Assembly: GCA_021323605.1 (NCBI GenBank) | Contig: JAJPKS010000302.1 | Location: 1-34,690 of the forward strand | Direction: 5' to 3' | DNA length: 34,690 bases | Source: Bacillota bacterium | GTDB taxonomy: Bacteria; Chloroflexota; Dormibacteria; Dormibacterales; Dormibacteraceae | In this document: piece by piece, positions 10,414-30,153 of the stretch | Layout: every line of letters starts with the position of its first letter | Position numbering within the stretch: the stretch's first letter is position 1 | Program-made: the position numbers and the translations under genes | Notes under the pieces: generated by a model | Seen by the model: the letters and a program-made list of their open reading frames with translations, nothing else | Told to the model about the DNA's origin: nothing | Databases searched by the model: none

Positions 10414-10449
10414 CGCCACCAGTGTAGGGGTTGCGAAGGTGCGTAGCGC

Positions 10450-10990: not shown

Positions 10991-11250
10991 CGGGCCGACC
11001 CTCGCCGTGTCCCGGAGCCGGGCCAGGCGGACCGGCCGGCACTATGCTAGGGCCCGGCGGCCCCTCGCCGGGGACGCATCGAAGGGGATCGGGTGAGCGG
11101 AGACCGCGATCGACGTCTCGCGACCGTGGCCGGCGCCGCCGGCGGGGCGGGGTCGGGTGAGATCACAGGTCGGGTGTCCGGCGCACGGCCCGACCCCGGG
11201 CATCGGGAGGAGGTTCGCCCGCCCGAACTCGAACAGGGAGGTGCAAGTCA

Positions 11251-11706: not shown

Positions 11707-11806
11707 GGCAGGGGATCGGACCCCCGGCCGGGGAAGCCGACGGCGGCCGGTGCCGGCGAAGCGCCCCGCCCCGCCCCCATCACTCCCTCACCCGCCCGGT
11801 CCGGGC

Positions 11807-13264: not shown

Positions 13265-13375
13265 CAAGGCATCACCTCACCTGCTCACGGACGGGCTGCC
13301 GGCACCGCCCGAGCCCACTCGGCGGTTCGGCGCCGGCTGTTGCGGCGACCCCTGGGATCGCCGAGGATGAAAACA

Positions 13376-13408
13376 CTATAATGCAAGAAATTTTGCCTAT
13401 GGTGAAAC
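13376..13408. promoter_or_regulatory. paired CTAT boxes overlapping a divergent -10 (allG/allH promoter)
   Basis: CTATAATGCAAG (13376-13387) and CTATGGTGAAAC (13397-13408) are similar direct repeats 21 bp apart. The first holds a perfect TATAAT (13377-13382) for the allH direction and, on the other strand, TATAGT for allG. Between them GCAAgaaattTTGC forms an imperfect palindrome. A similar pair with the same spacing lies at 20328-20360. Confidence 0.5.
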
Positions 13409-15608: not shown

Positions 15609-16020
15609 GCGGCGCCGGCGCCTCGTCGCCGAGGCCGAAGCTCAGCTGGGGGCCCGTCATCAGCGTGTTGGAGACGTAGCAGTAGCGCACCGCCCGCTCC
15701 ACCAGCCGGCGCAGGCGCTCGCGGTCGGACAGCCCGGCGTCGACCTCGACCCGGATGCGGGCGAACCGCATCCCCTCGTACTCTCCCCGCACTCTGACCG
15801 CGAGGTCGGGAAGGGCCACACCCTCCTTGCGGGCCACGTGGGCCATCGCCATGGTGAAGCAACTGGCCAGGGAGGCCAGCAGGAGCTCGGTCGGCATCGG
15901 CCCCCGGTCGCCGCCGCCGGCGGCGGGCGGCTCGTCGGCCGTGAGCACGAACTGACGGATGGGAATGGTGCAGCGGTAGCCCTCCTCCAGGAAGGCCGCG
16001 ACCTCCAGGTGGCCGGCCAT
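15598..16020 (-). CDS. OsmC-family peroxide-reducing or stress protein
   Basis: 140 residues. The two conserved OsmC cysteines are visible in LLLASLASCFTMAMAHVARKEG (about residue 57) and VERAVRYCYVSNTL (about residue 118), with an Asn/Thr pair after the second as usual. OsmC/Ohr proteins reduce organic hydroperoxides, or act as thiol-dependent hydrolases, in the cytoplasm. The ATG overlaps the stop of the glycosyltransferase gene (TGATG), so it is the last gene of the XRE-kinase-FdrA-glycosyltransferase operon. The ORF track buries it inside 15598..17445. The real start is ATG 16020 (MAGHLEVAAFLEEGYRC). Confidence 0.86.
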   Translation of the reverse strand: MAGHLEVAAFLEEGYRCTIPIRQFVLTADEPPAAGGGDRGPMPTELLLASLASCFTMAMAHVARKEGVALPDLAVRVRGEYEGMRFARIRVEVDAGLSDRERLRRLVERAVRYCYVSNTLMTGPQLSFGLGDEAPAPLNP

Positions 16021-17204
16021 CAGTCGCCCGGATCCCCCAGCAGGCGCCGGTAGAAGGCGATGTGCTGTCGCCCGCAGCGCTCCCAGCTGTACGCCGCCGC
16101 CACCGCCGGGCCCTGACCACCCAGCTTGGCACGCAGCCCGGGGTCGGTGACCAGGTCGGCCATGGCCGAGGCCAGCGCCTCGCGATCTTCGGGTGGGACC
16201 AGCAGCACCCCCCGGCCGTGCTCCAGGTACTCCCGGAAGACCGGGATGTCGGAGGCGATCACGGGCAGGCTCGAGGCCATCGCCTCCAGGATGGCGAGAC
16301 CCCACCCCTCCCTGGTGGAGGGGAAGACGAAGGCGTCGGCGGCGTGGTACCAGGCCGGGAGCTGCGCATCCGGGACGGTGCCGGGCAGAACCACGTCGCC
16401 GCCTGCGCCGTCCACCCGCAACCCCAGCCCCCGGGCGCGATCCAGCACCATCTCCCGATAGGCGGCGTGGTCCTGGAAGGAGTGGCCGCCCACCACGGCG
16501 AGGCGGAGGGGGAGGTCGAGCCGGGCCCGGACCATGGCCAGGGCCTCGATCAGGGTGAGCGAGTTCTTGCGCGGCTCGATCCCACCCACGGTCAGGAAGA
16601 GGAACCCGCCGTCGAGGCCCAGCCCCCGGCGCAGCCGGGGCCGGGAGCGGTCGCCCTCGCGTGCGAAGCGCCGGGCGTCCACGCCGTTGGTGACCACCTC
16701 GGCCTCGACCCCGTACTCGTGGCGCAGAAGCCGCCGCCAGTACCGGCTCACCACCAGCACCCGGTCCGGATCGACGATCGAGCGACGCTGGCACTCGACC
16801 AGGGCCGGGGTGGTGAAGTCGTCCACGTGGTGGACGGTGCGCACCACTCTCACCGGCAGCCCCGCCTCCCGGACCCGGGTCGCCGCCCGCGCCGCGATGC
16901 AGTCCTGGACGTGCAGCAGATCGAAGCCGGCCGCCGCCCCCATCAACGCCTCGGCCAGGGTGTCCACGTTCCTCCACACCCGCTCCTCGAGCGTCGGCGC
17001 CCATGGCGGCGCCGGGACGATGGTGTGGGGCACATCGAGCGCACGGTAGAAGCCCTGGCCGGGCTCGCCCAGGGCGAAGACGTGGACGGGCTGGCCCAGC
17101 GCCTGCAGCGCCTCGGCCAGGTGGAGCGTGTGCACCACGCCCCCCCGGGGCTTGGTCGAATACGTCACCAGGGCCACCCGGGGGCGCTCTCGCGACGTGC
17201 TCAC
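16020..17204 (-). CDS. glycosyltransferase, MSMEG_0565 family (GT4 type)
   Basis: 394 residues, GT-B fold. The N-terminal region RVALVTYSTKPRGGVVHTLHLAEALQALG, then FDLLHVQDCIAARAA and VRTVHHVDDFTTPALVECQRRSI, follow the distinctive pattern of the MSMEG_0565 family, part of the MSMEG_0565-0572 / Nit1C gene set. The C-terminal half has LTVGGIEPRKNSLTLIEA and the EX7E motif in STREGWGLAILEAM. It should transfer a sugar from a nucleotide donor; the acceptor is unknown. The start is GTG 17204, overlapping the FdrA stop (GTGA), while its Nit1C partners lie 5-10 kb away on the other strand. The ORF track merges it into a long shadow, 16020..18851. Confidence 0.87.
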   Translation of the reverse strand: MSTSRERPRVALVTYSTKPRGGVVHTLHLAEALQALGQPVHVFALGEPGQGFYRALDVPHTIVPAPPWAPTLEERVWRNVDTLAEALMGAAAGFDLLHVQDCIAARAATRVREAGLPVRVVRTVHHVDDFTTPALVECQRRSIVDPDRVLVVSRYWRRLLRHEYGVEAEVVTNGVDARRFAREGDRSRPRLRRGLGLDGGFLFLTVGGIEPRKNSLTLIEALAMVRARLDLPLRLAVVGGHSFQDHAAYREMVLDRARGLGLRVDGAGGDVVLPGTVPDAQLPAWYHAADAFVFPSTREGWGLAILEAMASSLPVIASDIPVFREYLEHGRGVLLVPPEDREALASAMADLVTDPGLRAKLGGQGPAVAAAYSWERCGRQHIAFYRRLLGDPGD

Positions 17205-18748
17205 GCCGGCTCCTCGGCGAAGGCGGGACGGCGCGCGGCCAGCGCCGCCGCCAGCAGCGCCGCCCGGGCGCTGGTCGGAGGGACCAGGCAGCCGGCCTCC
17301 TCCAGCCGGCGACGCTGCCGCTCGTACCCCTGGGGGTCGAGGTCGGTGCCGAGCACGTAGGCCACGATCGCCGGCCCGTCCCCCCGGCGGCCGACCTCGG
17401 CGCAGACCGGGGCCAGCAGGCCGGCCGGATCGGGGTGGGCGCCATGCCCGAGCACGACGTCGAGCAGGATCACCGCCGTGGCGGGATCGTCGGCCTCGGC
17501 CCGGATCCGCTCCAGCCGGGCCTCGGGGTCGAGCATGGGGTGGGGCCGACCCCGGGTGAACTCCTCCTCGCCCAGGTCCAGGCAGACGTGCCCGCCGGCG
17601 GGGGCGGGCAGCCCCCATCCCTCCCGCAACGGGGTGTTGGAGTGGATCGGCCCCAGGCGCGCGGAGAGCAGCACCATGGCTTCGTAACAGAGCGTTCCCC
17701 CGGAGAAGAGGCCGCGGACCGCCCGCCTGGAGGGAGCCAGCCGCCCCATACGCTCCTCGGCGACCGCGGCCAGGCCACGGGCGGGGTCGGGGACGGGCCG
17801 GCCCAGCTGGCGCAGCGCCGCCAGCACCGCCGCCTCGAGGCTCCCGGTCACCCGTACGCCCTCGGGGGCGGACGGCGGTCGCTCCAGGCCGATGAAGGCC
17901 GCCACCGCCGGCTTCGCGCCCAGCTGCGCCAGCAACCGCTCCGCCACCGCCGGCGCCGGGGGTTTGGAGACCAGGAGCAGGAGCCGGGTCTGCGGGTCCG
18001 CCTCGAGCGCACGCAGGGCGGCCGTCGCCATGGGCGCCCCCAGCTCGGCCGAGACGTCCCGGCCGCCCACGCCCACCACGTGGCTGAGGCCGAGTCCACC
18101 CCGGTGCAGCTGTGCCATCACCTCCTGGGCGCCGGTGCCGGCGGCGGCCACCACGCCCACCTCGCCCCGACGCACGACGTTGGCGAAGCCGAGGCCGACG
18201 CCTCCCAGGACCGCGGTCCCGGCCCCCGGCCCCATGACCAGCAGCCCGCGCCGGAGCGCCCTGGACTTGAGCTCGATCTCCGCCTCCAGGGGCACGTTGT
18301 CGCTGAACAGGAGCACGTGAAGGCCATGGTTGAGGGCCTTCTCCGCCTCGAGGGCGGCGAACGCCCCGGGCACCGAGATCAGGGCCAGGTTGGCGTCGGG
18401 CAGGAGCGCGAGCGCCTCGTCGAGGGTGCGCGGTCGGCGCTCGGCCGCCCCGGTCGAGGGAGGCTCGACCGTCGCCGCCAGCAGCGTCCCCTCCCCGGCC
18501 GCCAGTGCCCGCTCGGCGTCGGCCTCGGAGGCGGCCCGGACGGCCAGGACGAGGTCGTTGGCCCCGGCCTCGGCGAGCTCCGGGTGGCGAAACCCCTCCT
18601 CGGCCAGCCGCTCCCGGTTCTGGGGGGTCGCCATCAGGGCCGCCGCCCACTCGACCCCGTCGCTCCCCTGCATGGCCCGGGCGGCGGCGAGGAGCAGGGT
18701 GGAGTCGACGTAGGTGTTGGGGCGAAGGCGAACGCGGCCGGTGCTCAT
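17201..18748 (-). CDS. fdrA: FdrA family protein, oxamate carbamoyltransferase subunit AllF
   Basis: 515 residues, related to succinyl-CoA synthetase alpha. Family blocks: RLRPNTYVDSTLLLAAARAMQ at the N-terminus, LHVLLFSDNVPLEAEIELKSRALRRGLLVMGPGAGTAVLGGVGLGFANVV (about 142-192), VVAAAGTGAQEVMAQLHRGGLGLSHVVGVGGRDVS (about 197-231), and GLFSGGTLCYEAM. FdrA was long annotated as an acyl-CoA synthetase. In E. coli it is now known as AllF, acting with AllG and AllH to cleave oxalurate to oxamate and carbamoyl phosphate. The ATG overlaps the carbamate kinase stop by 4 nt and its stop overlaps the glycosyltransferase start, so it is translationally coupled on both sides. Confidence 0.9.
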   Translation of the reverse strand: MSTGRVRLRPNTYVDSTLLLAAARAMQGSDGVEWAAALMATPQNRERLAEEGFRHPELAEAGANDLVLAVRAASEADAERALAAGEGTLLAATVEPPSTGAAERRPRTLDEALALLPDANLALISVPGAFAALEAEKALNHGLHVLLFSDNVPLEAEIELKSRALRRGLLVMGPGAGTAVLGGVGLGFANVVRRGEVGVVAAAGTGAQEVMAQLHRGGLGLSHVVGVGGRDVSAELGAPMATAALRALEADPQTRLLLLVSKPPAPAVAERLLAQLGAKPAVAAFIGLERPPSAPEGVRVTGSLEAAVLAALRQLGRPVPDPARGLAAVAEERMGRLAPSRRAVRGLFSGGTLCYEAMVLLSARLGPIHSNTPLREGWGLPAPAGGHVCLDLGEEEFTRGRPHPMLDPEARLERIRAEADDPATAVILLDVVLGHGAHPDPAGLLAPVCAEVGRRGDGPAIVAYVLGTDLDPQGYERQRRRLEEAGCLVPPTSARAALLAAALAARRPAFAEEPA

Positions 18749-19725
18749 CGCCGGCGTGCCGGCCGCGCCCCGGCGGAGACGATCCTGGTCCCGTGCTCTC
18801 CCCGCAGCGCCTCCAGGATGTGGTCCGGCGAGGTGATGACCGCCAGCTCACCGCCCCCGGCCAGGAAGCGAACGGCCGCGCTGACCTTCGGGCCCATGCT
18901 CCCGGCCGGGAACTGACCGGCGGTCAGGTAGCTCTGCGCCTCCTCGGCGCTGATCTCCCGCAGAGGCCGGGCCCGAGGCGTCCCGTAGTCCACCTGGACC
19001 TGATCGACGGCCGTGATCATGATCAGCACCCGGGCGCCGACGGACGAGGCCAGCCGCTGGGCGGCGAGGTCCTTGTCGATCACCGCCTCGGCCCCGACCA
19101 GCCGGTCGTCCCGGCGCACGACCGGGACGCCACCCCCGCCGGCCGCGATCACCACGAAACCGGCCTCGAGCAGGGCCCCGATGGCGTCCGCCTCCACCAG
19201 GGCCAGCGGCTCCGGCGAGGGCACCACCCGGCGATACCCCCGGCCGGCGTCCTCGGCCACCTGCCAGCCCTGCCGCGCCGCCAGCCGTTGCGCCTCGGCC
19301 AGGTCGAAGAACGGGCCCACGGGCTTGGTGGGCCGGCGGAAGGCCGGGTCCCCGGCGTCGACCACGACGTGGCTCACGACCGCGACCACCGGTGGCGGCT
19401 GGGCGGGCCGCAGGTTGCGCAAGGCGATGGCCACGAGGCTGCCGATCTGGCCCTGGGTCATGGCTCCCAGGACGAAGAGGGGCTGCGGCGGCGCCAGCTG
19501 CGCCGCCTCCTGCTGCTGGAGGGCCAGGATCCCGACCTGGGGGCCGTTGCCGTGGGTGAGCACCACCCGATAGCCGGCGTCGATGAGACCCAGGACGGCC
19601 CGCGCCATCCGGGTCGCCCGGGCCTCCTGCCGCTCGAAGCTGGGCGGCTCGCCCTCGGGGGCGAGGGCGTTGCCCCCCAGCGCCACCACGGCGGTCGGGG
19701 TCACCGTGCCCTGAGCGCCAGCCAT
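18745..19725 (-). CDS. arcC: carbamate kinase
   Basis: 326 residues. Motifs: VVALGGNAL (N-terminal phosphate loop, about 13-21), LTHGNGPQVG (about 56-65), RRPTKPVGPFF, VIAAGGGGVPVV, AVIDKDLAA (carbamoyl-phosphate and ATP site), and AGSMGPKVSAA near the C-terminus. It makes ATP from carbamoyl phosphate and ADP, releasing NH3 and CO2. In this operon it would take the carbamoyl phosphate released from oxalurate by AllFGH, as AllK (YbcF) does in E. coli. The start ATG 19725 lies 25 nt inside the upstream regulator gene, with GGAGGTG about 12 nt before it. No arginine deiminase genes are nearby. Confidence 0.93.
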   Translation of the reverse strand: MAGAQGTVTPTAVVALGGNALAPEGEPPSFERQEARATRMARAVLGLIDAGYRVVLTHGNGPQVGILALQQQEAAQLAPPQPLFVLGAMTQGQIGSLVAIALRNLRPAQPPPVVAVVSHVVVDAGDPAFRRPTKPVGPFFDLAEAQRLAARQGWQVAEDAGRGYRRVVPSPEPLALVEADAIGALLEAGFVVIAAGGGGVPVVRRDDRLVGAEAVIDKDLAAQRLASSVGARVLIMITAVDQVQVDYGTPRARPLREISAEEAQSYLTAGQFPAGSMGPKVSAAVRFLAGGGELAVITSPDHILEALRGEHGTRIVSAGARPARRR

Positions 19726-20315
19726 ATCGCCCGGGCCACCTCCGAGGACGGGTTGGACCAGTGGTGCGGGCGGTCGGTGCGGAAGTGGAAGGCGTCACCC
19801 GGGGCGAGGTGGAACTCCTCGCCGTCGACCACGAGCTGGAGCGTGCCCTCCAGGAGGTAGATCAACTCCTCGCCCCAGTGCTCCATCGGCCTGGGACCGC
19901 TGCTGGCCCCCGGCTGGACGGTGGCGAAGGCGCCGGCGATGAAGAAGGGACCGTAGGGCCCGCTGATGCTTCGCAGCTCGATGCCTTCCTTGGAGGTGTA
20001 GAGCGGCCGGCGATCCTCGGGGTGGACCAGCACCGCCGGCCCCGCCGCCTCCTCCTCCACGAAGTAGCTCACCGACCGGTTCAGGGCGCCGGCCAGCTTG
20101 AGCAGCGTGGCCACGGTCGGCACCATGCCGTTGCGTTCGATCTTGTGGATCGCCGCCGCCGACACCCCGGAGCGCTCTGCGAGCTGCTGCAGGGACAGCT
20201 GTCGCTCCCGCCGGAGCTGCCTGACCTTCTGGCCGATGCCGTCGACGGTCTGGGCGATGGACAGCGCCCTCCGATCCACACCCGACTCCCTGAGCTTGCG
20301 AGACTCCCTTTCCAT
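19701..20315 (-). CDS. XRE-cupin transcriptional regulator
   Basis: 204 residues. The N-terminal helix-turn-helix spans about 27-82: IGQKVRQLRRERQLSLQQLAERSGVSAAAIHKIERNGMVPTVATLLKLAGAL. The C-terminal cupin barrel (about 125-200) has PMEHWGEELIYLLEGTLQLVVDGEEFHLAPGDAFHFRTDRPHHWSN, with the usual E, G and PGD turns and a His-rich face that may bind a metal or small ligand. Proteins of this layout usually sense a metabolite and control adjacent catabolic genes. It is first in the operon with carbamate kinase and FdrA, and divergent from the flavoprotein gene. The start is ATG 20315; TATGAT (20333-20338) lies upstream within one of two CTAT boxes. Confidence 0.9.
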   Translation of the reverse strand: MERESRKLRESGVDRRALSIAQTVDGIGQKVRQLRRERQLSLQQLAERSGVSAAAIHKIERNGMVPTVATLLKLAGALNRSVSYFVEEEAAGPAVLVHPEDRRPLYTSKEGIELRSISGPYGPFFIAGAFATVQPGASSGPRPMEHWGEELIYLLEGTLQLVVDGEEFHLAPGDAFHFRTDRPHHWSNPSSEVARAIWLALRAR

Positions 20316-20327
20316 TCCGCGCTGTTG

Positions 20328-20360
20328 CGTTTATCATAGAGCATAATTGGTTCACGATAG
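20328..20360. promoter_or_regulatory. paired CTAT boxes in the XRE-operon / flavoprotein divergent promoter
   Basis: On the minus strand, CTATCGTGAACC (20360-20349) and CTATGATAAACG (20339-20328) repeat at 21-bp spacing. TATGAT in the second box is a plausible -10 for the XRE operon. The same box type and spacing occur at 13376-13408. The surroundings are AT-rich, so some similarity could be chance. Confidence 0.5.
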
Positions 20361-20395
20361 TTTATGACGTTGGGATCGTCCTGGAGGCTGGAGCG

Positions 20396-21727
20396 CTGAA
20401 TCGCATCGTCATCGTCGGAGGAGGAGCGGCGGGGATCGGGGCCGCCGGCGCCGCCCGACAGACCGACCCGGAGGCGGACGTGCGCGTCTACACCGAGTTC
20501 GAGGACGTCGGCTACAGCCCGTGCGGTATCCCCTACGTGCACGGCCGGGAGATCCCCGCCTTCGAGAACCTGATCCTGCAGGACAAGGACTTCTACGCCC
20601 AGCAACGGATCGACGTCCACTACACGACCCGGGTGACGAGGCTCGACCTGAGGCAGGGGGCGGTCGAGGTGGAGGGCGAAGGCCGGGTGGACTTCGACCG
20701 CCTGGTGGTCGCCACCGGTTTCGACTACGAGCCGCCCGGGGTGCCCGGTGACGCCCTGACGGGGCTCTACTACGTGAAGAACATCCGGCGGGCGATGGAG
20801 TTCGACGAGCTGATCGAGGAGGCCCGTCACGTGGTGGTCGTGGACGCCACCCCGCTGGGGCTGGAGATGGCGACGGCGCTGGCCCACCGCGGCAAGGAGA
20901 CCCACCTCGTCGACCCCCATCCCTGGTTGCTGTCCGAGGTCGCGGACCCGGAGATCATGAAGCCGGTCGAGGACTCCCTGGTGGAGATGGGGGTGCAGAT
21001 GCACCTGACCACCCGGCTGGAGGGCTTCCTGGGCGACGGGAAGGTCCGCGCCGTGAGCACCTCGGCGGGCGAGATCCCAGCCGACCTGGTGGTGGTGTGC
21101 ACGCCCAAGCAGCCGAACAACCGGCTGGCCCGGGAGGCGGGGCTGCAAATCGGCTCCACGGGCGGGATCGTGGTCGACGAGCGCATGGCCACCTCGGTGG
21201 AGGGGGTCTACGCGGCGGGGGACGTGGTCGAGCTGCCGCACGCCGTGACCAGGGTGCCGGTGCAGGGGCTGACGGGTAGCCACGCCTACGCCCAGGGCAA
21301 GGTGGCGGGCACCAACGCGGCCGGGGGCCGGCGCATCTACCAGCCGGTCTACGTGCCCTGGGGAATGGTGGCGGGCAAGTGGATGGTCGGGGGCGTCTCC
21401 TTCGGAGAAACCCTGGCCACGGCGCTCGGGGTGCCCTTCGTGGTGGGACAGGCCGAGGGCATCTCGCGGGCCCGGTACTACCCGGGCACCACCAGGATCC
21501 GGGTCAAGCTGCTGGCCGAGCCCAAGAGCCTGCGCCTGATCGGGGCCCAGCTGGTGGGCGGTGAGGGGATCAAGGAGCGCTGTGACTTCCTGGGGGTGGC
21601 GGTCTGGAAGGGCATCACGATCGAGGACCTGGCCTACATGGAGAACGTGTACTCCCCGGCCATCGGCGCGCTGAGCGAGCCGATCGCGCTGGCGGCTCAG
21701 AACTGCCTGGCCCGACTCCAGCGATGA
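20396..21727 (+). CDS. CoA-disulfide-reductase/NADH-oxidase-like flavoprotein, CTG start
   Basis: 443 residues if translation begins at CTG 20396; the track's GTG 20480 would delete the FAD-binding strand. With CTG, the protein begins MNRIVIVGGGAAGIGAAGAARQ (FAD GxGxxG), GGAGG lies 8 nt upstream, and the redox cysteine in GYSPCGIPY falls at residue 43, the position of the active-site Cys in CoA-disulfide reductases. The second FAD block is VEGVYAAGDVVELPH, and the C-terminal dimerisation domain is present. Oddity: the NAD(P)H-binding loop, normally GxGxxG, reads VVVVDATPLGLEMATAL, so two glycines are replaced. It may be a disulfide or persulfide reductase, or an oxidase with altered electron-donor use. 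It heads the plus-strand Nit1C-like gene series. Confidence 0.85.
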   Translation: MNRIVIVGGGAAGIGAAGAARQTDPEADVRVYTEFEDVGYSPCGIPYVHGREIPAFENLILQDKDFYAQQRIDVHYTTRVTRLDLRQGAVEVEGEGRVDFDRLVVATGFDYEPPGVPGDALTGLYYVKNIRRAMEFDELIEEARHVVVVDATPLGLEMATALAHRGKETHLVDPHPWLLSEVADPEIMKPVEDSLVEMGVQMHLTTRLEGFLGDGKVRAVSTSAGEIPADLVVVCTPKQPNNRLAREAGLQIGSTGGIVVDERMATSVEGVYAAGDVVELPHAVTRVPVQGLTGSHAYAQGKVAGTNAAGGRRIYQPVYVPWGMVAGKWMVGGVSFGETLATALGVPFVVGQAEGISRARYYPGTTRIRVKLLAEPKSLRLIGAQLVGGEGIKERCDFLGVAVWKGITIEDLAYMENVYSPAIGALSEPIALAAQNCLARLQR

Positions 21728-22061: not shown

Positions 22062-22550
22062 ATGCCGAAGACGGTCGAGACCCCGAAGCCCGAGGCCGGA
22101 CAGTTTCTCTACGACCCCGAGGAGAAGGTCTTCGAGGACATCAAGGCGAAGCCCGGGGAGAAGGCCTACGTCTTCATCCACACCGTGCCCTACGAGGGGT
22201 CGGTGGCCCTGGTCAACCTGCTCACGGCCACGCGCCTGGTGCGGAAGGGCTTCGACGTCCACATCGTCCTCTACGGGCCGGGGGTGCTGCTGGCCTCCGG
22301 CACCCGCGGCTACCCGGCGGTCGGCCAGGAGGCCTTCCCTGGCCATCTCGCCATCAACAACCAGATCAAGACCCTCCTGAAGGAGGGCGCCCACATCTAC
22401 GCCTGCCGCTTCGCCATGGGCGCGCTGTACGGGTTCCGGGAGGACGACCTGATCGAGGGGGTCAAGCCCTTCAACCCGCTGGACGTGCTGGACGCGGCCC
22501 TGACCGCCTGGCGGGAGGGGGCTTTCCAGCTCAACACCTGGACGGTCTAG
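22062..22550 (+). CDS. MSMEG_0572/Sll0783 family nitrogen-starvation protein (Nit1C cluster)
   Basis: 162 residues with a DsrE/YchN-like layout: an alternating strand-helix start (KAYVFIHTVPYEGSVALVNLLTATRLVRKGFDVHIVLYGPGVLLASGTRGYPAVGQEAFPGH), then NQIKTLLKEGAHIYACRFAMGALYGFREDDLIEGVKPFNPLDVLDAALTAWREGAFQLNTWTV. This matches the MSMEG_0572/Sll0783 family, found almost only in Nit1C-type operons with a nitrilase, a radical SAM protein, a GNAT and an AIR-synthase-like protein. A cysteine (Cys in IYACRFAMG) sits where DsrE-fold proteins often carry a reactive thiol. The molecular role is unknown; Nit1C clusters have been linked to cyanide assimilation and nitrogen limitation. AGAGGAGG precedes the ATG, and a strong hairpin follows the stop. 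Confidence 0.85.
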   Translation: MPKTVETPKPEAGQFLYDPEEKVFEDIKAKPGEKAYVFIHTVPYEGSVALVNLLTATRLVRKGFDVHIVLYGPGVLLASGTRGYPAVGQEAFPGHLAINNQIKTLLKEGAHIYACRFAMGALYGFREDDLIEGVKPFNPLDVLDAALTAWREGAFQLNTWTV

Positions 22551-22640: not shown

Positions 22641-23258
22641 ATGAAAGTGGAGGAGGTCGTCCGTCGCTGGCGCTCGGCCGAGCAGCGGCTGTACACCATC
22701 GTGATGGTGCGGCCGGACCTCTACATGCGCAGCGTGGAGCTGGTCCGGGCCATCGCCGACCGGCTCCGGTCGGAGTCCACCGAGGAGGGCCTGGTGGAGG
22801 CGTACGAGCGGGCCTCGGAGCTGGTGGCCGAGGTGGTGAGGACTTCCGGGCTTCCCTCCGAGGAGCTCGACCTGGGGCTGGTGGCGGGGGCGGCCTTCAG
22901 CCTCCGCCACCGCGAGGTCGTGTCCGAATCGCACCGGGCCGAGGCCATCCGGCGCATCCGCGAGGGGCGGGAGCGGGGAGAGCGCTGGATCGTGCTCTAC
23001 GAGACCGGCTCCGGCTATCCGCCCATGCCCTACCGGCGCCTGGAGATGCACCTCCCCACCGGGGTCGGGCTCCATGCCTGCATCGAGGCGGACCCGGCGA
23101 CCCTCGCCCCCCGGTACAGCGTCGAGGCCATCCAGCTGGACCTCGCCACCGGCGACTGGCTGGCGAGGACGGAGCCGGTGAGCGAACGCCAGACCTTTGC
23201 CACCGCCGGCGAGTGGAGGGAGGCGGTGGAGGCCCTGCGGACCCGGCTGGACCGCTGA
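22641..23258 (+). CDS. hypothetical 205-aa protein of the Nit1C-like cluster
   Basis: Not recognised. Residues 1-75 are helical and charged (MKVEEVVRRWRSAEQRLYTIVMVRPDLYMRSVELVRAIADRLRSES). Residues 105-205 look like an alpha/beta domain: RWIVLYETGSGYPPMPYRRLEMHLPTGVGLHACIEADPATLAPRYSVEAIQLDLATGDWL. There are no signal peptide, membrane segments or obvious cofactor motifs. It lies between two terminator-like hairpins and between the MSMEG_0572-type and amidohydrolase genes on the same strand. The start ATG 22641 lacks a clear Shine-Dalgarno. Its place inside the cluster makes it a candidate new member of the pathway, but function is unknown. It is not the small MSMEG_0570 protein (about 90 aa). 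Confidence 0.75.
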   Translation: MKVEEVVRRWRSAEQRLYTIVMVRPDLYMRSVELVRAIADRLRSESTEEGLVEAYERASELVAEVVRTSGLPSEELDLGLVAGAAFSLRHREVVSESHRAEAIRRIREGRERGERWIVLYETGSGYPPMPYRRLEMHLPTGVGLHACIEADPATLAPRYSVEAIQLDLATGDWLARTEPVSERQTFATAGEWREAVEALRTRLDR

Positions 23259-23410: not shown

Positions 23411-24277
23411 ATGGCACAGGAGCGGGTACCCAGGCGCGTGATCGACGCCCACAGCCACATCGGCGAGATGGCCGCCTGGAAGTTCTACGACCTCAAGGAG
23501 CCGGTCAAGCCCACCGTCTACGAGTTCCCCACGGCGAAGGACTACCTCGCGCACATGGACGAGCACCGGCTCGAGCGGGCGCTGATCCTCCCCAACTACG
23601 GCATCCCGGTGCAGGAGCAGCCCTTCTCCCTCAACCCGCTCGTCATCGAGAGCGTCCAGGCCAGCGACCGGCTGGTGGGCGGGCTCTGGGTCTCCTTCCT
23701 GCCCCAGAACCGGGAGCGGACGCTGGAGGCCCTGACGCACGCCGGCGAGCGCGGGATCGTGGCCCTCAAGACCACGTTCCTGCTCGGCGGCAATCCCAAC
23801 CCGGAGACCTGGGACGAGGCCACGGCCGAGATCGCCGACGCCTGCTTCCGGGCGGCCGAGGAGCACGACCTGGTCTTCCACTTCCACACCAGCCCCGGGG
23901 GTACCTCCGACATCAGCAACTACATCCCGCTGGTCGAGAAGTACGGGAAGCGGGTGAAGATGTACCTGGTCCACTTCGGCGGCGGGGTGAGTGGCCACAT
24001 CCGACTGGTGCCGCGCTTCCTGGACTGGGTCGAGCAGGGCTACCGGGTGTACACCGACATCACCTGGTCGGTCGGCTTCGGGGCCCGCTGGTTGCTGGCC
24101 GAGATCGAGCGCCGGGGGGTCGGGGGTGACCGGGTGCTCTTCGCCTCTGACGAGCCCTGGAGCGACTTCTACAGCGAGTTCTGGAAGATCAACGGCGCCC
24201 GGGTGAGCGAGGAGCTGAAGGAGCGGGTCTTCTGGCAGAACTTCGAGGACCTCTATGTCCGCAACCGCAAGCGATAG
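23411..24277 (+). CDS. amidohydrolase-2 family metal-dependent hydrolase
   Basis: 288 residues, TIM-barrel amidohydrolase (PF04909 type). Metal-site features: VIDAHSHIGEM (HxH, about residues 13-19), DLVFHFHTSPGG (His about 161), MYLVHFGGG (His after a strand, about 186) and VLFASDEPWSDF (Asp about 240). Family members hydrolyse or decarboxylate small acids and lactones. In standard Nit1C clusters this slot beside the radical SAM gene holds a nitrilase; here there is no nitrilase in the window, and this hydrolase takes the position. The ATG has AGGAG 9 nt upstream. Its end overlaps the radical SAM gene by 23 nt. Substrate unknown. Confidence 0.85.
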   Translation: MAQERVPRRVIDAHSHIGEMAAWKFYDLKEPVKPTVYEFPTAKDYLAHMDEHRLERALILPNYGIPVQEQPFSLNPLVIESVQASDRLVGGLWVSFLPQNRERTLEALTHAGERGIVALKTTFLLGGNPNPETWDEATAEIADACFRAAEEHDLVFHFHTSPGGTSDISNYIPLVEKYGKRVKMYLVHFGGGVSGHIRLVPRFLDWVEQGYRVYTDITWSVGFGARWLLAEIERRGVGGDRVLFASDEPWSDFYSEFWKINGARVSEELKERVFWQNFEDLYVRNRKR

Positions 24278-25418
24278 GTTCGGCCGGGATCGCCGGGAGC
24301 TGGCGCTGGGAAGGCTGCTGACCGAGCTCCAGCGCTTCGGTGTGCAGGTCGAAGAGCCCGCCGTGGAGGGCAGGAAGGGAGGGGCGGGTCCCTCCGACGC
24401 CGGCATGATCTGGCTGGAGGGCGTGCCCGTCACCTTCCCGTTCGCGGCCGACTACGTCACCCGCTCGCCCTTCACGCTGCGGCGGGACGGGGAAGGATGG
24501 GCCCTCTACCGGGGCCGGGAACGCCTGGGCAAGGCCGTGGTGCCGCCGCGTCCCAGGTACTACGACCTGACCACCGCCGACGGCATCCCCTACTGGAAGA
24601 TCGCGCTCCTGCACCTGGACTCGCTGGCCAGCACCGTGATCCAGACCTGCGCCTACTGGGCGACGCCGGACCAGTGCCGCTTCTGCGGCATCCAGCTCTC
24701 CCTGGAGGCGGAGCGGACGATCGCGGTCAAGCGGCCGGGGCAGCTGGCGGAGGTGGCGCGGGCGGCAAAGGAACTCGACGGGGCCGTGGACGTGACGCTC
24801 ACCACCGGCAGCACCCGGGGCCGTGACCGCGGCGCCCTCTACGTGGGGCGCTGCGCTCGGGCGATCAAGGAGGCGACCGACTTGCCCGTGCAGGCCCAGT
24901 TCGAGCCGCCCGAGGACCTCGGCGTGCTGGAGACGGTCAAGGCGCTCGGCGTCGACTCGGTCGGCATCCACATCGAGACCTTCGACCCCGAGGTGCTCGC
25001 CCGGGTGGCCCCGGCCAAGGCCCGAACCGGGGTCGAGGGATACTTCCGGGCCTGGGAGCGAGCGGTGGAGGTGTTCGGCCGGGGCCAGGTGTCGACCTAC
25101 GTGATCCTGGGTATGGGCGAGGACCCGGGACTGACGCTGGAGGGCTGCCGGCGGGCGATCGACATGGGGGTGTATCCCTTCGTGGTGCCGCTGCGGCCGA
25201 TCCCGGGGAGCCTGATGGGCGACCTGCTTCCGCCGCCTCCCGACTACGTCGAATCGATGTACCGGAAGGTCGCGCCCTACCTGGTGGCGCGGGGGCTGAC
25301 GTCGGGCGCGGTGCGGGCCGGCTGCGCCCGCTGCAACGCCTGCTCGGCTCTGGGTGCGTTCGAACGGAGCTTTCGAGATGCCCCTGGCCGCCGTCTCACC
25401 GTTCTCGACCAGGGCTGA
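24255..25418 (+). CDS. radical SAM protein, MSMEG_0568 family (Nit1C cluster)
   Basis: 387 residues. The iron-sulfur motif is CAYWATPDQCRFCGI, a C-x8-C-x2-C form rather than the usual C-x3-C-x2-C; this spacing is characteristic of the MSMEG_0568 family. Further blocks: TTGSTRGRDRG, QAQFEPPEDLGVLETVKALGVDSVGIHIETFDPEVLARVAPAKA, STYVILGMGEDPGLTLEGC, and a C-terminal Cys group AGCARCNACSALG (three Cys within ten residues) that could hold a second cluster. The product and substrate of this family are unknown. The start ATG 24255 overlaps the amidohydrolase gene with GAGGA 5 nt upstream, and the end overlaps the GNAT gene, giving tight translational coupling. Confidence 0.9.
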   Translation: MSATASDRFGRDRRELALGRLLTELQRFGVQVEEPAVEGRKGGAGPSDAGMIWLEGVPVTFPFAADYVTRSPFTLRRDGEGWALYRGRERLGKAVVPPRPRYYDLTTADGIPYWKIALLHLDSLASTVIQTCAYWATPDQCRFCGIQLSLEAERTIAVKRPGQLAEVARAAKELDGAVDVTLTTGSTRGRDRGALYVGRCARAIKEATDLPVQAQFEPPEDLGVLETVKALGVDSVGIHIETFDPEVLARVAPAKARTGVEGYFRAWERAVEVFGRGQVSTYVILGMGEDPGLTLEGCRRAIDMGVYPFVVPLRPIPGSLMGDLLPPPPDYVESMYRKVAPYLVARGLTSGAVRAGCARCNACSALGAFERSFRDAPGRRLTVLDQG

Positions 25419-25911
25419 CCTGGCCGCGCTCGCCGGCCGTTCCCTGCCCCTCAGGTGCCGGCCGGTGTCGGGGGCCGAGGAGCTCCTGATCCACTTCCAG
25501 ATCCGGGAGGCGATCTTCGTCCACGAGCAGGGGCTGTTCCGGGTCAGCGATCGGGACGCCCGCGACGACGCCTCCGCCACCGTCCACGTGCTCGGCCTGA
25601 AGGGGCCGGTCGCCGGGGGCACGGTCAGGCTCTACCCCCTGGAGGAGCGAGGGCTGTGGAAGGGCGACCGGCTGGCCGTTCTGCCCGAGTTCCGGGCCTC
25701 CGGGCTGGGGGCCGAGCTGGTGCGTTTCGCCGTGAGAACCGCGGCCCGGCACGGCGGCCGGACCATGATCGCCCACGTCCAGATCCCCAACGTGCGCTTC
25801 TTCCAGCTCCTGGGCTGGGAACGGGTCGGGGAACCGGTGGAGTACGTGGGCCGGCCCCATCAGGAGATGGCCATCGACCTCCGCCCCCGGCGGAGCCGGG
25901 AGAACGGCTGA
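25378..25911 (+). CDS. GNAT acetyltransferase, MSMEG_0567/Sll0786 family (Nit1C cluster)
   Basis: 177 residues, GNAT fold. Visible: HFQIREAIFVHEQGLFRVSDRDARDDASATVHVLG (the 'xxIRxxVFVxEQ' start of N-acetyltransferases, about residues 36-70), AGGTVRLYPL, RLAVLPEFRASGLGAELVRFAVRTAARHGGRTMIAHVQ (acetyl-CoA pyrophosphate loop region) and VRFFQLLGWERVG. It matches the MSMEG_0567/Sll0786 nitrogen-starvation acetyltransferases of Nit1C clusters; acceptor unknown. The track starts at 25354, but ATG 25378 has GGAG 8 nt upstream. The gene overlaps the radical SAM end by 41 nt, so the two are coupled. Confidence 0.86.
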   Translation: MPLAAVSPFSTRADLAALAGRSLPLRCRPVSGAEELLIHFQIREAIFVHEQGLFRVSDRDARDDASATVHVLGLKGPVAGGTVRLYPLEERGLWKGDRLAVLPEFRASGLGAELVRFAVRTAARHGGRTMIAHVQIPNVRFFQLLGWERVGEPVEYVGRPHQEMAIDLRPRRSRENG

Positions 25912-25916
25912 GCCCC

Positions 25917-25936
25917 GCCGGCGCTCAGGCGCCGGC
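25917..25936. terminator. hairpin between convergent GNAT and AIR-synthase-like genes
   Basis: GCCGGCGC (25917-25924), loop TCAG, then GCGCCGGC (25929-25936). The loop contains the stop codon of the minus-strand gene. It is a compact 8-bp bidirectional terminator candidate. Confidence 0.5.
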
Positions 25937-26914
25937 ACCCCCGTCCAGCCCGGTCACCGACTCGGCGGCGAAGTCGATCAGGACCGCCTCGGCCCCGCCC
26001 AGGAAGATCCGCAGGCGGCCCGAGCCGTCCAGCCTCCCCACCGGCTCGCAGGTGAGGTCCCGGGATCGGAAGAGCGCGCAACAGGCGTCGACCCGGTCCT
26101 CGGGGGCGCACAGGAGGAAGGCGAAGGAGGGAAAGGCCGCCAGCCAGCGGGAGAGAGGAACCCCGGCCGGCCCCGGGAGACGATCGAGGTCGACCCAGGC
26201 CCCGAGCCGGTTCGCCTCCAGCAGCATGGCCAGCGAGCCGAGAAGCCCGGCCATGCTCACGTCCCGGGCGGCGGCGCAGAGATCCCGCTCCGCGACCTCG
26301 GCCAGCAGCCGGACGTCGTCCGCGGCCCGCCGGCCCCTCGCCTCCAGCGAGGAGAAGAAGGGGAAGTCGTCCCGCATCCGCCCCTCCAGGCAGCAGGCCA
26401 GGAGCAGGGTCTGGCCGGGCGCGGCCTGGCGGATGGAGAGCAGCCGGGAGGCCCGGCCCACGATGAAGGCGGAGAGGGCCGGAGCTGCGTCACGCACGGT
26501 CAGATGGCCGCCGACGATGGGAACACCGTAGACCTCGGAGGCGCGTCGAACGCCCTCGAGCGCCTCCCGGGCCACTGGCTCGGGACCGACCAGGGTGTCG
26601 ACGACGGCCAGCGGCCGCCCGCCCATCGCCGCCACGTCGTTGACGTTGGCGAGGACGGCGGCGATGCCGGCGCCCAGGGGATCGCTCTCCACGAAGGGCG
26701 GATAGATGGCCTCGCCGGCGACCAGCAGGTAGCCGTCATCGAGCGGCAGGGCGGCGGTGTCGTCGCCCGGACCATGGAGCCAGTCGCCGCGCCCCAGCAC
26801 GCCGGCGACCAGGCGCAGCGCACCTTTGGCCCGGAGCGCGGGGGCCTCACGCACCTGGCCCACGATCCGGTCGATCTCGAGGCGGACGTCCCGGGCCTCG
26901 CTCATCCCGGGCAT
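25925..26914 (-). CDS. AIR-synthase-like protein, Sll0787 family (Nit1C cluster)
   Basis: 329 residues, PurM/SelD fold. The ATP/Mg-binding start GPGDDTAALPLDDGYLLVAGEAI (about 48-70) and the VLANVNDVAAMGGRPLAVVDTL block (about 88-109) identify the family; VGGHLTVRDAAPALSAFIVG and ARDVSMAGLLGSLAMLLEAN (substrate-loop equivalents) follow. The Sll0787 group is a Nit1C component of unknown reaction. PurM-fold enzymes use ATP to activate amide or carboxylate oxygens. It is on the opposite strand to its partners, converging with the GNAT gene. Start ATG 26914 has no Shine-Dalgarno; TAGTTT lies 5 nt upstream, suggesting leaderless translation, with ATG 26905 an alternative. Confidence 0.85.
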   Translation of the reverse strand: MPGMSEARDVRLEIDRIVGQVREAPALRAKGALRLVAGVLGRGDWLHGPGDDTAALPLDDGYLLVAGEAIYPPFVESDPLGAGIAAVLANVNDVAAMGGRPLAVVDTLVGPEPVAREALEGVRRASEVYGVPIVGGHLTVRDAAPALSAFIVGRASRLLSIRQAAPGQTLLLACCLEGRMRDDFPFFSSLEARGRRAADDVRLLAEVAERDLCAAARDVSMAGLLGSLAMLLEANRLGAWVDLDRLPGPAGVPLSRWLAAFPSFAFLLCAPEDRVDACCALFRSRDLTCEPVGRLDGSGRLRIFLGGAEAVLIDFAAESVTGLDGGAGA

Positions 26915-26985: not shown

Positions 26986-27879
26986 GTGAAGAACGTCATG
27001 CCCGGCCAGTACCGGAGCGTCTCGGTGGCGAGCATCGACGCTCCGCTGGACGAGGCGGCGGTGCGCGCCCACTTCATCGGCCGCGACGCCTACCGCCGGA
27101 CCCGGTTCATCGTGGTCCGCAGCGCGGAGGCGACGGCGGTGATCAGGGTGGTCAAGGCATCCGAGGAGCCCCTCTTCTCCCCCATCATCGACCTCGAGAT
27201 CCTCGCCGGCCCCGAGCACTGCGCGCTGGTCTCGGCCCCGGAGGTGGACACGGCGGTGCCCACGCAGATGGCCCGGGCGGCGCGCGAGCTGGCGCCCGGG
27301 ACACGCTCCGTCGTCGTCCAGGGCCGGTACCAGCACGTGAACTTCATCCTCGACCCGAGCCCGCTCCCGATCCGGGTGGTGGAGGTGGTGCCGCCGGAAC
27401 CGCCCAAGCTGCTCGATCAGGCCCGGCGGGTGCTGGAGGTGGCGGAGGACCTGCCCCCGATCGAGCTCCACCCCGAGCTGTTCGACCTGCGCATCCTGGC
27501 CCGTACGGCGCCGGCGGCTGCGTATCTCTTCCCGTGCCGGGGCTCGGGCGTGCTGGCCGAGGGCGCGGAGGTGGCCTACCTGGACGAGCACCCCTCGCCA
27601 CGGGACTGGACCCTGGTGGGCTGCGCCCGCTCCCGTCAGATCCACGCCTGGTTCTACGGCCGGGAGCCGGACACCGTCGACATGTGCCCCCGTCACCTGG
27701 CCGCGGCCGCCGGCCCCTCGGGCGCGGCCGACACCCTGACCAAGTGCTGCCTGCTGGAGGATCGCATCGCCTGCGACGGTCCCGTCGTCACCGTCCCCTG
27801 GGGCTCCAGCCTGGCCGAGGTGCGGGAGGGCCTGCGACGCCTGGCGAGGAGGATCGACCCCGGGTGGCAACCCGCCTGA
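26986..27879 (+). CDS. DUF7714-like protein with clustered cysteines
   Basis: 297 residues. The family assignment is from memory of actinobacterial proteins of this kind and is tentative. The N-terminal half is alpha/beta (RTRFIVVRSAEATAVIRVVKA, LVSAPEVDTAVPTQMARAARELAPGTRSVVVQGRYQHVNFILDPSPLPIRVVEVVPPEPPKLLDQ). The C-terminal third has several Cys and His: FPCRGSG, VGCARSRQIHAWFYG, DMCPRHLAAAAG, TKCCLLEDRIACDG. These could bind a metal or Fe-S cluster. The function of the family is unknown. Start GTG 26986 follows GAGGCGA; ATG 26998 is the alternative. It overlaps the lyase gene by 16 nt and leads to ComA, so it belongs to that operon. Confidence 0.72.
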   Translation: MKNVMPGQYRSVSVASIDAPLDEAAVRAHFIGRDAYRRTRFIVVRSAEATAVIRVVKASEEPLFSPIIDLEILAGPEHCALVSAPEVDTAVPTQMARAARELAPGTRSVVVQGRYQHVNFILDPSPLPIRVVEVVPPEPPKLLDQARRVLEVAEDLPPIELHPELFDLRILARTAPAAAYLFPCRGSGVLAEGAEVAYLDEHPSPRDWTLVGCARSRQIHAWFYGREPDTVDMCPRHLAAAAGPSGAADTLTKCCLLEDRIACDGPVVTVPWGSSLAEVREGLRRLARRIDPGWQPA

Positions 27880-29237
27880 CCGAGTCGCCGCTCTACCGCC
27901 ACCTCTGGAGCACGCCCGAGCTCGACGCCGTGTTCGAGGAGCGGGCGCGCCTGCAGTCCTGGCTGGATGTCCTGGCCGCCCTGGCCGCGGCCCAGGCGGA
28001 ACTCGGCATCATCCCCGAGGAGGCGGCCCGGGCGATCGCCCGGGGCGCCCGGGTGGAGACGCTGGACCTCGACCTCATAGCCCGGGAGACGCAGCGCAGC
28101 GGCCACTCCACGCTGGGCCTGATCCAGGGCCTGCGCCGGACGCTGCCGCCGCCGGCACGGGAGTACGTCTACTACGGAGCCACCGTGCAGGACCTGACCG
28201 ACACCTGGATGGGGCTGGCCATCAAGCGGGTCGGGGCCTTCGCCTGGTCGCGCCTGCGGGGCATCGAGGCGACCCTGCTGGAGCTGGCCCTGCGCCATCG
28301 TTCGACGCCCATGGCGGGTCGGACCCACGGACAGCCGGGCTCACCCATCACCTTCGGCCTCAAAGCGGCCTCCTGGGCGGACGAGGTCCGTCGGCACCTG
28401 GAGCGCCTCGACCAGGGCCGGCGCCGCTGGCCGGTGGGCCAGCTGGCCGGCGCCGTGGGCACCCTGGCCTTCTTCGGTCCTCGCGGCCCGGAGCTGCGCC
28501 GTCGTTTCTGTCAGCGGCTGGGCCTGGTCGACCCGGGCGTCGCCTGGACCACCGCCCGCGATCGCCCGGCCGAGTTCCTGCACCTGCTGGCGATGATCAC
28601 CGCCACCCTGGCGCGCGTCGGCCGTGAGATCTACGAGCTACAGCGGCCCGAGATCGGGGAGCTGCGCGAGCCCTCTCGCCCGGAGGCCGTCGGCAGCATC
28701 ACCATGCCCCACAAGCGGAATCCGGAGGTGTCCGAGCACCTGGTGACGCTGAGTCGCCTGGTGCGGGCGCAGGCTGCGGTGGTGCTGGAGGGCATGGTGC
28801 AGGAGCACGAGCGCGACGGGGCCGGCTGGAAGGCGGAATGGGCGGCCTTCCCCGACGCCTGCCTCTACGCCGGCGCGGCGCTGAACCTCGCCGGGACGGT
28901 GCTGGAGGGACTGGAGGTGGACGAGGCGCGGATGGGGGAGAACCTGGCCCGGAACCAGGGGTATCTGGCCTCGGAGCGCGTGCTCGCCGTCCTGGCGCCG
29001 CGGCTGGGCAAGCACCGGGCGCAGGAGCTGCTCCAGGACGCGCTGGGGCAGGGCCGCCGGCGCGGGCTCCCGCTGGAGGCGGCGCTCCGCGAGGCCGACG
29101 CCCTCCGCCCCTACCTGGACCGGGAGGTGGAGGGGCTGGTCGCCGGGGTCGACGTGGGGGCCGCCGCCCAGATGGTGGACGAGGTGGTGGGGAGGGCCCG
29201 CCGGGCCCGGGCCGCCGAAGCGGAGGAATGGCCGTGA
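27864..29237 (+). CDS. aspartase/fumarase-superfamily lyase (PurB/CMLE-like)
   Basis: 457 residues. The ORF track starts at 27534, but residues before GTG 27864 are the shadow of the upstream gene; AGGAGG lies 11 nt before this GTG. Blocks: YVYYGATVQDLTDTWMGLAIK (about 91-111), GRTHGQPGSPITFGLKAASWADEV (about 150-173), and the signature loop EAVGSITMPHKRNPEVSEHL (about 274-293). It is nearest in feel to adenylosuccinate lyase and 3-carboxymuconate cycloisomerase. Immediately downstream is phosphosulfolactate synthase. In Xanthobacter, coenzyme M synthesis pairs that synthase (XcbB1) with superfamily lyases (XcbC1, XcbD1) that eliminate phosphate and then decarboxylate. The context suggests the same here; housekeeping PurB is the alternative but lacks pur neighbours. 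Confidence 0.85.
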   Translation: MATRLTESPLYRHLWSTPELDAVFEERARLQSWLDVLAALAAAQAELGIIPEEAARAIARGARVETLDLDLIARETQRSGHSTLGLIQGLRRTLPPPAREYVYYGATVQDLTDTWMGLAIKRVGAFAWSRLRGIEATLLELALRHRSTPMAGRTHGQPGSPITFGLKAASWADEVRRHLERLDQGRRRWPVGQLAGAVGTLAFFGPRGPELRRRFCQRLGLVDPGVAWTTARDRPAEFLHLLAMITATLARVGREIYELQRPEIGELREPSRPEAVGSITMPHKRNPEVSEHLVTLSRLVRAQAAVVLEGMVQEHERDGAGWKAEWAAFPDACLYAGAALNLAGTVLEGLEVDEARMGENLARNQGYLASERVLAVLAPRLGKHRAQELLQDALGQGRRRGLPLEAALREADALRPYLDREVEGLVAGVDVGAAAQMVDEVVGRARRARAAEAEEWP

Positions 29238-29283
29238 GGTCGGCCGGCTCCCGGCCAGGGACGCGCGCCCCCGGGGGTGGGGC

Positions 29284-30153
29284 GTGAGCCCACCCCCGGA
29301 AGGGACGTCCGGGCCGCCGTCGGCCGGTCGGTTCCGCCCGCTCCCGGACCGGGACGGGCGGACGGCGGGGGACGAGGCGGGATTCCTCGGTCTGCCCGCC
29401 CGCGCTCCCAAGCCGCGCCCGGTCGGTCTGACCCACGTCCTGGACCGGGGTGTGCCGCTGGCGAACTTCGAACCCCTGGTGGCCTCCATCGCCCGCTTTG
29501 CCGACATCTGGAAGTTCGGCTGGGGCACCTCGTACCTGGACCGGGACCTGGGCGACAAGCTGGCCATCCTGGCCCGCCACCAGGTGCTCGCCTGTCCGGG
29601 CGGCACCCTGGCGGAGATCGCCTGGCTTCGAGGCAGAATCGGAGACTTCCTGGCCTGGGCGGAGGCGATGGGCTTCGCCGCGGTTGAGATCTCCAACGGG
29701 GCCACCGCCATGACGGCGACGGAGAAGCGGAGGCTGATCGCTCTGGCCGCCGGCCGCTTCGTGGTGCTGTCAGAGGTGGGCTCGAAGGACCCCCGGGTCA
29801 CCTGCTCGCCGGCCGACCTCGCCCGGCAGGCGCGGGCCGACCTGGAGGCGGGGGCGCGCTGGATCGTGCTCGAGGGAAGGGAGCACGGCAACGTCGGGCT
29901 GTACCGCGAGGACGGCAGCGTGCGCGAGGAGGTGGTGGAGGCGGTGATCTCGGCATCGGGTCCGGGCCCGGTGGTGTTCGAGGCCCCACGGAAGGAACAG
30001 CAGGTCTGGCTCATCCGCCGCCTCGGCCGCGACGTCAACCTGGGGAACGTCGCCCCGGCCGACGTCCTTGGCCTGGAGACCCTGCGCCTCGGCCTGAGGG
30101 CCGACACGCTCTTCCTGCTCTCGGCCGACCCCGAGCGACCGGCCGACGCCTGA
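29284..30153 (+). CDS. comA: phosphosulfolactate synthase (ComA family)
   Basis: 289 residues, TIM barrel. After a Pro/Gly-rich N-terminal extension of about 45 residues, the ComA core runs PVGLTHVLDRGVPLANFEPLVASIARFADIWKFGWGTSYLDRDLGDKLAILARHQVLACPGGTLAEIAWL, then AVEISNGATAMTATEKRRLI, VVLSEVGSKDP, ARWIVLEGREHGNVGLY, VVFEAPRKEQQVWLIRRLGRDVNLGNVAPADVLGLETLRLGLRADTL. KFGWGTS, EISNG and LEGRE are the family's substrate positions. The enzyme adds sulfite to phosphoenolpyruvate, giving (2R)-phosphosulfolactate, for coenzyme M or sulfolactate. It follows the lyase by 46 nt. Start GTG 29284 is the track's; a later start within the extension is possible because its composition is low-complexity. 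Confidence 0.87.
   Translation: MSPPPEGTSGPPSAGRFRPLPDRDGRTAGDEAGFLGLPARAPKPRPVGLTHVLDRGVPLANFEPLVASIARFADIWKFGWGTSYLDRDLGDKLAILARHQVLACPGGTLAEIAWLRGRIGDFLAWAEAMGFAAVEISNGATAMTATEKRRLIALAAGRFVVLSEVGSKDPRVTCSPADLARQARADLEAGARWIVLEGREHGNVGLYREDGSVREEVVEAVISASGPGPVVFEAPRKEQQVWLIRRLGRDVNLGNVAPADVLGLETLRLGLRADTLFLLSADPERPADA

Follow-up and report, generated by a model that had tools for sequence, protein, structure and literature searches.

Homologues of coenzyme M synthesis genes in the window

The window analysed here is the whole of contig JAJPKS010000302.1 (34,690 nucleotides; C228), part of a 4.35-Mb draft genome of the Dormibacteraceae (GCA_021323605.1, here G000) that is 88.8% complete. At positions 26986-30153 it carries a module of three genes that we identify as xcbA, xcbD and xcbB, homologues of genes for coenzyme M (CoM) synthesis in Xanthobacter Py2 (Table 1). 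All three reading frames are real, lie closely packed on the forward strand and have a third-position GC of 0.91-0.95, a strong coding signal. The xcbA and xcbD genes overlap by 16 bases and 46 bases separate xcbD from xcbB, which bears out the description of three same-strand genes with overlaps or short gaps that a model had given from the letters of the window (the sequence-only reading). The Pfam matches of the products were far above chance (DUF7714, 308.6 bits; Lyase_1, 119 bits; ComA, 252.6 bits), and the family models together with identities of 45.5%, 41.6% and 43.6% to the Py2 XcbA, XcbB and XcbD (XcbD1) proteins support the earlier assignment of the module to a Xanthobacter-type sulfonate pathway. 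The window has the same GC as other contigs of G000 and a matching tetranucleotide composition (r 0.92), which supports the placement of the contig in this genome but does not prove it, because the related genome G059 agrees equally well (0.93).

The cysteine-rich DUF7714-like protein, put forward in the sequence-only reading as a candidate new component, is XcbA, which in Py2 is encoded at the head of the operon (Xaut_5051). Residues H117, C184, C213, H220, C234, C254 and C255 are invariant over 36 homologues. The predicted structure (pLDDT 93.8, pTM 0.90) had no fold match at E<=0.001 in the PDB or among viral models, and the modelled protein, with its five invariant cysteines, possibly represents a new fold.

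XcbB matched the ComA structures 1u83 and 1qwg, and the EVGSKD motif was retained in the alignment with 1u83; the archaeal ComA equivalog model scored it at 236, under the cut-off of 280. The proposal that the ComA homologue and the lyase carry out the first two steps of the pathway held for XcbB, but the lyase is not the phosphate-eliminating XcbC: its family score, its place in the lyase tree and its identity to the Py2 enzyme all point to XcbD, a family named '3-sulfopropionylcysteine synthase' in NCBIfam. We also considered whether this lyase is the housekeeping PurB and rejected it, since the purB equivalog model gave 272 bits against a cut-off of 326 and the genome has a separate PurB (480 bits, over its cut-off) on contig C459.

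The second lyase, listed as missing in the sequence-only reading, lies in the same window about 11 kb upstream of the module. XcbC was the best family match of this protein, which is 39.8% identical to Py2 XcbC1 and shares with it the TYLQxAQP and RAS..xPQKRNPYALA changes relative to ASL; its ATG overlaps the stop codon of an AllH-like gene (ATGA). By homology, it would convert phosphosulfolactate to sulfoacrylate. In the lyase tree the window XcbC and XcbD each grouped with the corresponding Py2 enzymes, with good support, and both clades were separate from ArgH, PurB and the PcaB-like lyase of the same genome.

The absence of the pyridoxal phosphate enzyme (XcbE), already noticed in the operon, extended to the whole draft genome, where the best match reached 40.9 bits against a cut-off of 450. 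The order in the Py2 operon xcbABCDE (pXAUT01, Xaut_5051-5055) is conserved hypothetical, ComA, lyase, lyase and ACC-deaminase-like protein. The window resembles it in having XcbA, B, C and D homologues with 40-46% identity and the family signatures, but it differs in lacking xcbE and the gene for epoxyalkane:CoM transferase (EaCoMT), in the separation of xcbC from xcbA-D-B, and in having nitrogen genes instead. We are highly confident of the identities of the window xcbA, B, C and D genes and their neighbours, and we conclude that four of the five genes for bacterial CoM synthesis, xcbC with a score below its curated cut-off, are present in the window within a conserved nitrogen superlocus. 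Without XcbE, the genome lacks one part of what defines the CoM pathway in full.

Three contexts of xcb genes

A scan of GTDB contigs for XcbA gave 43 loci, among which three contexts could be distinguished. The type I loci (14 in the gene matrix) combine xcb with EaCoMT, a label verified against Py2, and/or with its companions, EaCoMT itself being present in 12. In the 20 type II loci, which come from Actinomycetota, Chloroflexota, Dormibacterota and Marinimicrobia, xcb is joined by nitrogen genes encoding MSMEG_0572, a radical SAM protein, a GNAT protein, an AIR synthase, a glycosyltransferase, AllFGH resembling oxamate carbamoyltransferase, and usually carbamate kinase, with a CoA-disulfide-reductase-like flavoprotein and either a cobalt nitrile hydratase or an amidohydrolase; this count includes the window and G059, and some of the loci are short contigs with a partial gene set. 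These nitrogen and nitrile surroundings had gone unrecognised in the sequence-only reading. EaCoMT occurred in none of the 20 type II loci and the nitrogen genes in none of the 14 type I loci, a split that is a description and not an independent test, because the context labels came from the same gene matches.

The co-occurrence of XcbA and the radical SAM protein in 400 Chloroflexota genomes is an independent check on the nitrogen setting. XcbA was present in four of them, and the radical SAM protein scored over its cut-off in three, all among those four (Fisher 3.8e-7, uncorrected for relatedness); these three have type II XcbA, and the fourth XcbA-bearing genome is type I. Pairwise XcbA distances also correlated with those of the CoA-disulfide-reductase-like protein, AllG, FdrA, the AIR and radical SAM proteins and other non-xcb proteins (r 0.67-0.91), to which shared species history contributes, and in many loci xcbB, xcbA and xcbD adjoin the AIR, GNAT and radical SAM genes. 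When whole genomes were searched, no EaCoMT orthologue was found in G000, G059, G218 or G434, the best G000 match being a MetE-like protein with 34% identity. The sole whole-searched type II genome with an orthologue, G419, has a separate EaCoMT locus with its own xcbE beside the type II locus. XcbE is in the operon in most other type II loci, including those of the near relatives G059, L036 and Actinomycetospora; like G000, the type II genomes G417 and G436 (a Solirubrobacter soli isolate) lack it genome-wide and retain XcbA-D.

In the type III context, found at four loci, xcb occurs with MtaA/CmuA-like proteins, members of the methylcobamide:CoM methyltransferase family, and a corrinoid activator. 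At these loci (L042, L051, L052 and L053, the last at positions 10001-20852; Chloroflexi/Anaerolineales metagenome-assembled genomes) xcb adjoins two MtaA/CmuA-like genes and a RACo-type activator gene, and CoM may serve there as a methyl acceptor in bacteria. Two further Anaerolineales loci (L046 and L069) have XcbA; the xcb set nearby is incomplete, and the partner genes of all three contexts are absent.

According to a 2024 paper, the genes for CoM synthesis had been seen in no organisms other than methanogenic archaea and aerobic bacteria that use alkenes (PMC11507031); they are now seen in a nitrile/carbamoyl nitrogen setting at about 20 loci in four phyla, which invites a fresh look at how CoM arose in bacteria. 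The open-access literature searched yielded no account of this locus, and an earlier one elsewhere is possible.

Neighbouring genes and comparison with known nitrogen systems

Table 1. Genes of the xcb and nitrogen locus, in order along the window
Feature	Position	Strand	Evidence
AllG-like (DUF1116)	11807-13267	-	PF06545, 232 bits
AllH-like, oxamate carbamoyltransferase subunit	13381-14109	+	PF11392, 65.8 bits
XcbC-type lyase	14106-15608	+	NF052535, 441.8 bits, below cut-off 575
OsmC-like protein	15598-16020	-	NF041052, 59.6 bits, below cut-off
MSMEG_0565 family glycosyltransferase	16020-17204	-	TIGR04047, 399 bits, over cut-off
AllF/FdrA-like, succinyl-CoA ligase alpha type	17201-18748	-	NF004760, 428 bits, cut-off 433
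Carbamate kinase	18745-19725	-	TIGR00746, 361.6 bits, over cut-off
XRE-cupin regulator, PuuR-like	19701-20315	-	HTH_3 and Cupin_2; PuuR model 90.5 bits, below cut-off
CoA-disulfide-reductase-like flavoprotein, single Cys (SPCGIPY)	20396-21727	+	TIGR03385, 253 bits, below cut-off
MSMEG_0572/Sll0783, Nit1C ORF1-type, DsrE-like	22062-22550	+	TIGR04044, 211.6 bits, over cut-off
Uncharacterised 205-aa protein	22641-23258	+	tblastn matches in several type II loci
Amidohydro_2 enzyme, ACMSD/2-pyrone-4,6-dicarboxylate hydrolase fold	23411-24277	+	PF04909; fold match 4i6k, E 3e-10
MSMEG_0568 family radical SAM protein	24255-25418	+	TIGR04043, 399.8 bits, cut-off 303.7
MSMEG_0567 GNAT domain protein	25354-25911	+	TIGR04045, 105 bits, cut-off 68
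sll0787-type AIR-synthase-like protein	25925-26914	-	TIGR04049, 290 bits, cut-off 321
XcbA (DUF7714), CoM-pathway protein	26986-27879, GTG start	+	NCBIfam NF052538, 358.8 bits, cut-off 150
XcbD, aspartase/fumarase-superfamily lyase	about 27864-29237, GTG start	+	NF052536, 624.4 bits, cut-off 600
XcbB/ComA, phosphosulfolactate synthase	29284-30153, GTG start	+	PF02679, 252.6 bits, over cut-off

The genes between 11.8 and 26.9 kb make up the nitrogen part of the locus. The AllF/FdrA-like protein matched FdrA (PDB 3dmy) with 264 bits. The start codon of the flavoprotein gene is uncertain, with the CTG at its listed start likely, and the top PDB matches were NoxA-3 and CoA-disulfide reductases. 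The Amidohydro_2 model (mean pLDDT 79.5) showed only the general ACMSD/PDC-hydrolase/LigJ-hydratase fold and indicated no substrate, and the 205-aa protein had no match in Pfam or NCBIfam. The AIR-synthase-like gene is divergent from xcbA, with a gap of 71 bases; the second-best match of its product was methanogenesis marker 2 (TIGR03267, 185.6 bits), a family of CoM-using methanogens. At the other end of the window, genes at 1110-6301 for an MFS transporter, an FAD-binding monooxygenase and an HpaB-type hydroxylase probably belong to aromatic catabolism and are unrelated to the xcb finding.

Part of this set resembles the Nit1C (nitBCDEFGH) cyanide-assimilation cluster. Nit1C clusters encode a hypothetical protein of 160-163 aa, a radical SAM protein, an acetyltransferase and an AIR synthase, with a glycosyltransferase added in some species (PMC1199592), and the Nit1C nitrilase supports cyanide assimilation in Pseudomonas, where Nit1C is required (PMC11049912). 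The ORF1 (MSMEG_0572), radical SAM and GNAT proteins of the window all score over their cut-offs, and the AIR-synthase and glycosyltransferase proteins are also present. Unlike Nit1C, with its subfamily 1 nitrilase, the type II locus has no nitrilase, and it has gained xcb, AllFGH and carbamate kinase genes along with one for nitrile hydratase or amidohydrolase; the linkage to xcb gives a context for the unexplained Nit1C proteins. Actinomycetospora succinea has a second, separate Nit1C-like cluster (L108; G421:C4:262000-280000) with MSMEG_0572, radical SAM, GNAT, AIR-synthase and glycosyltransferase genes and without xcb, AllFG or nitrile hydratase.

The window also has homologues of all four proteins of the E. 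coli AllFGHK system, in which AllFGH is an oxamic transcarbamylase that makes or uses carbamoyl phosphate (PMC11326118) and AllK is the carbamate kinase. It differs from that system in that no allantoin or oxalurate genes were recognised upstream in the window, and in its linkage to CoM and Nit1C-type genes; oxalurate or oxamate is a putative substrate here.

The cobalt nitrile hydratase genes are complete, the alpha (304.6 bits), beta (154.8) and accessory (70.9) proteins each exceeding the cut-off, and lie inside the type II locus of Actinomycetospora, Pseudonocardia, L028 and G059. Thiocyanate hydrolase was rejected as the identity of this enzyme, given that the alpha subunit scored 304.6 bits as nitrile hydratase versus 190 as thiocyanate hydrolase gamma. 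Where a well-covered locus lacks nitrile hydratase, as in the window, the Amidohydro_2 enzyme is present, and the 15 loci split cleanly (6 versus 9); this mutual exclusion is suggestive only, because it corresponds to 1-3 independent changes on the tree.

Proposed role of the locus

On the evidence of gene linkage, we favour with some reserve the reading that CoM, or a close relative, serves this nitrogen locus in a pathway from nitrile or cyanide to carbamoyl phosphate. The setting suggests a second job for CoM, a small sulfur cofactor whose known use in bacteria is limited to growth on gases such as ethylene. A nitrile step is suggested because complete cobalt nitrile hydratase genes lie inside the locus of several genomes, and carbamoyl phosphate is suggested as the exit because AllFGH-like proteins and carbamate kinase are present. 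With enzymatic steps assigned from NCBIfam names and secondary papers, XcbB would add sulfite to phosphoenolpyruvate, XcbC would eliminate phosphate to give sulfoacrylate, XcbD would add cysteine, and CoM or a very similar sulfonate thiol would be completed by XcbA together with XcbE or, in the window genome, a substitute for it. One could envisage, speculatively and by analogy with HypE chemistry, that this thiol is the carrier of a C-N unit: an S-cyano thiol would arise from cyanide or from a nitrile that the Nit1C-type proteins help to produce or import; the CoA-disulfide-reductase-like flavoprotein would keep the thiol in redox balance; the cobalt nitrile hydratase (in the window, the amidohydrolase) would hydrate the S-cyano to an S-carbamoyl thiol; the AllFGH-like proteins would transfer the carbamoyl group to phosphate; and carbamate kinase would convert carbamoyl phosphate to ATP, ammonia and CO2, the net effect being nitrogen salvage. 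We regard this S-cyano/S-carbamoyl-CoM chemistry as doubtful.

Several observations weigh against a nitrogen role for CoM here. One of the defining steps, XcbE, is missing from G000 and from two further genomes of type II, so that CoM is a putative end product here, and XcbC, FdrA, the AIR protein and the CoA-disulfide-reductase-like protein all score under curated cut-offs. No nitrilase family match was found among the window genes scanned with Pfam and NCBIfam; the window has no nitrile hydratase either, and the G000 copy lies on another contig with unrelated neighbours. We know of no enzyme that uses S-carbamoyl-CoM, and AllFGH could act on oxalurate alone.

The missing XcbE bears on the possibility that the product of the locus is a different sulfonate from CoM, the pathway either stopping at the cysteine thioether formed by XcbD or converting it to another sulfonate that works in the nitrogen pathway. 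The retention of XcbA-D in all three genomes without XcbE argues for it; however, most other type II loci, near relatives included, keep XcbE in the operon, the G000 genome is an incomplete draft, and an unrelated pyridoxal phosphate C-S lyase could replace XcbE, and we consider another end product unlikely. Somewhat less probable still is that AllFGHK, the Nit1C-type genes and xcb have separate functions in one nitrogen island, with AllFGHK as an oxalurate-degrading system and xcb as a passenger. The activity of E. coli AllFGH would fit such an arrangement, yet the AllH and xcbC genes overlap, xcbB, xcbA and xcbD adjoin the AIR, GNAT and radical SAM genes in many loci, XcbA distances track those of the nitrogen proteins, and the upstream allantoin/oxalurate genes were not recognised in the window. 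To our knowledge, no step directly joins CoM to the AllFGHK or Nit1C-type enzymes, a point in favour of separate functions.

That xcb serves alkene or epoxide metabolism at type II loci, as in Xanthobacter, Mycolicibacterium and Nocardioides, with the nitrogen genes as mere neighbours, is very improbable. Type I loci fit EaCoMT-linked use of CoM, and every characterised bacterial xcb cluster known to us works with EaCoMT. Against this, the transferase is found in no type II locus and has no orthologue in the four whole genomes named above, G419 keeps its EaCoMT-linked xcb locus apart from its type II locus, and xcb is repeatedly accompanied by the nitrogen genes, in four phyla.

Evolution of the settings

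All six plasmid matches to XcbA were to Xanthobacter Py2, M. chubuense NBB4, Nocardioides JS614 or Methylocystis iwaonis, the first three of which are known alkene oxidisers. In the XcbA tree, the deepest split had type II sequences on either side, in both cases next to type I sequences, and type II monophyly was rejected (approximately unbiased test, p-AU 0.0001, for a group defined after the loci were seen). Among the XcbC sequences of the lyase tree, for which ArgH provides the root, both halves again had type II sequences at their base or close to it. A simple reading of these trees, from a small sample, is that the nitrogen setting may be older and that alkene use was gained twice; repeated capture of xcb by the nitrogen locus is a possible alternative. 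The broadest form of the favoured reading, in which CoM is a C-N carrier (as S-cyano-CoM and then S-carbamoyl-CoM) in an energy-yielding assimilation of cyanide or nitriles that ends in carbamoyl phosphate and is older than bacterial alkene use, which would have arisen from it at least twice, is put forward tentatively and is rather unlikely to hold in all its parts. Several type II loci belong to culturable strains of Actinomycetospora, Pseudonocardia and Solirubrobacter, which offer a direct route to the role of CoM in this setting.

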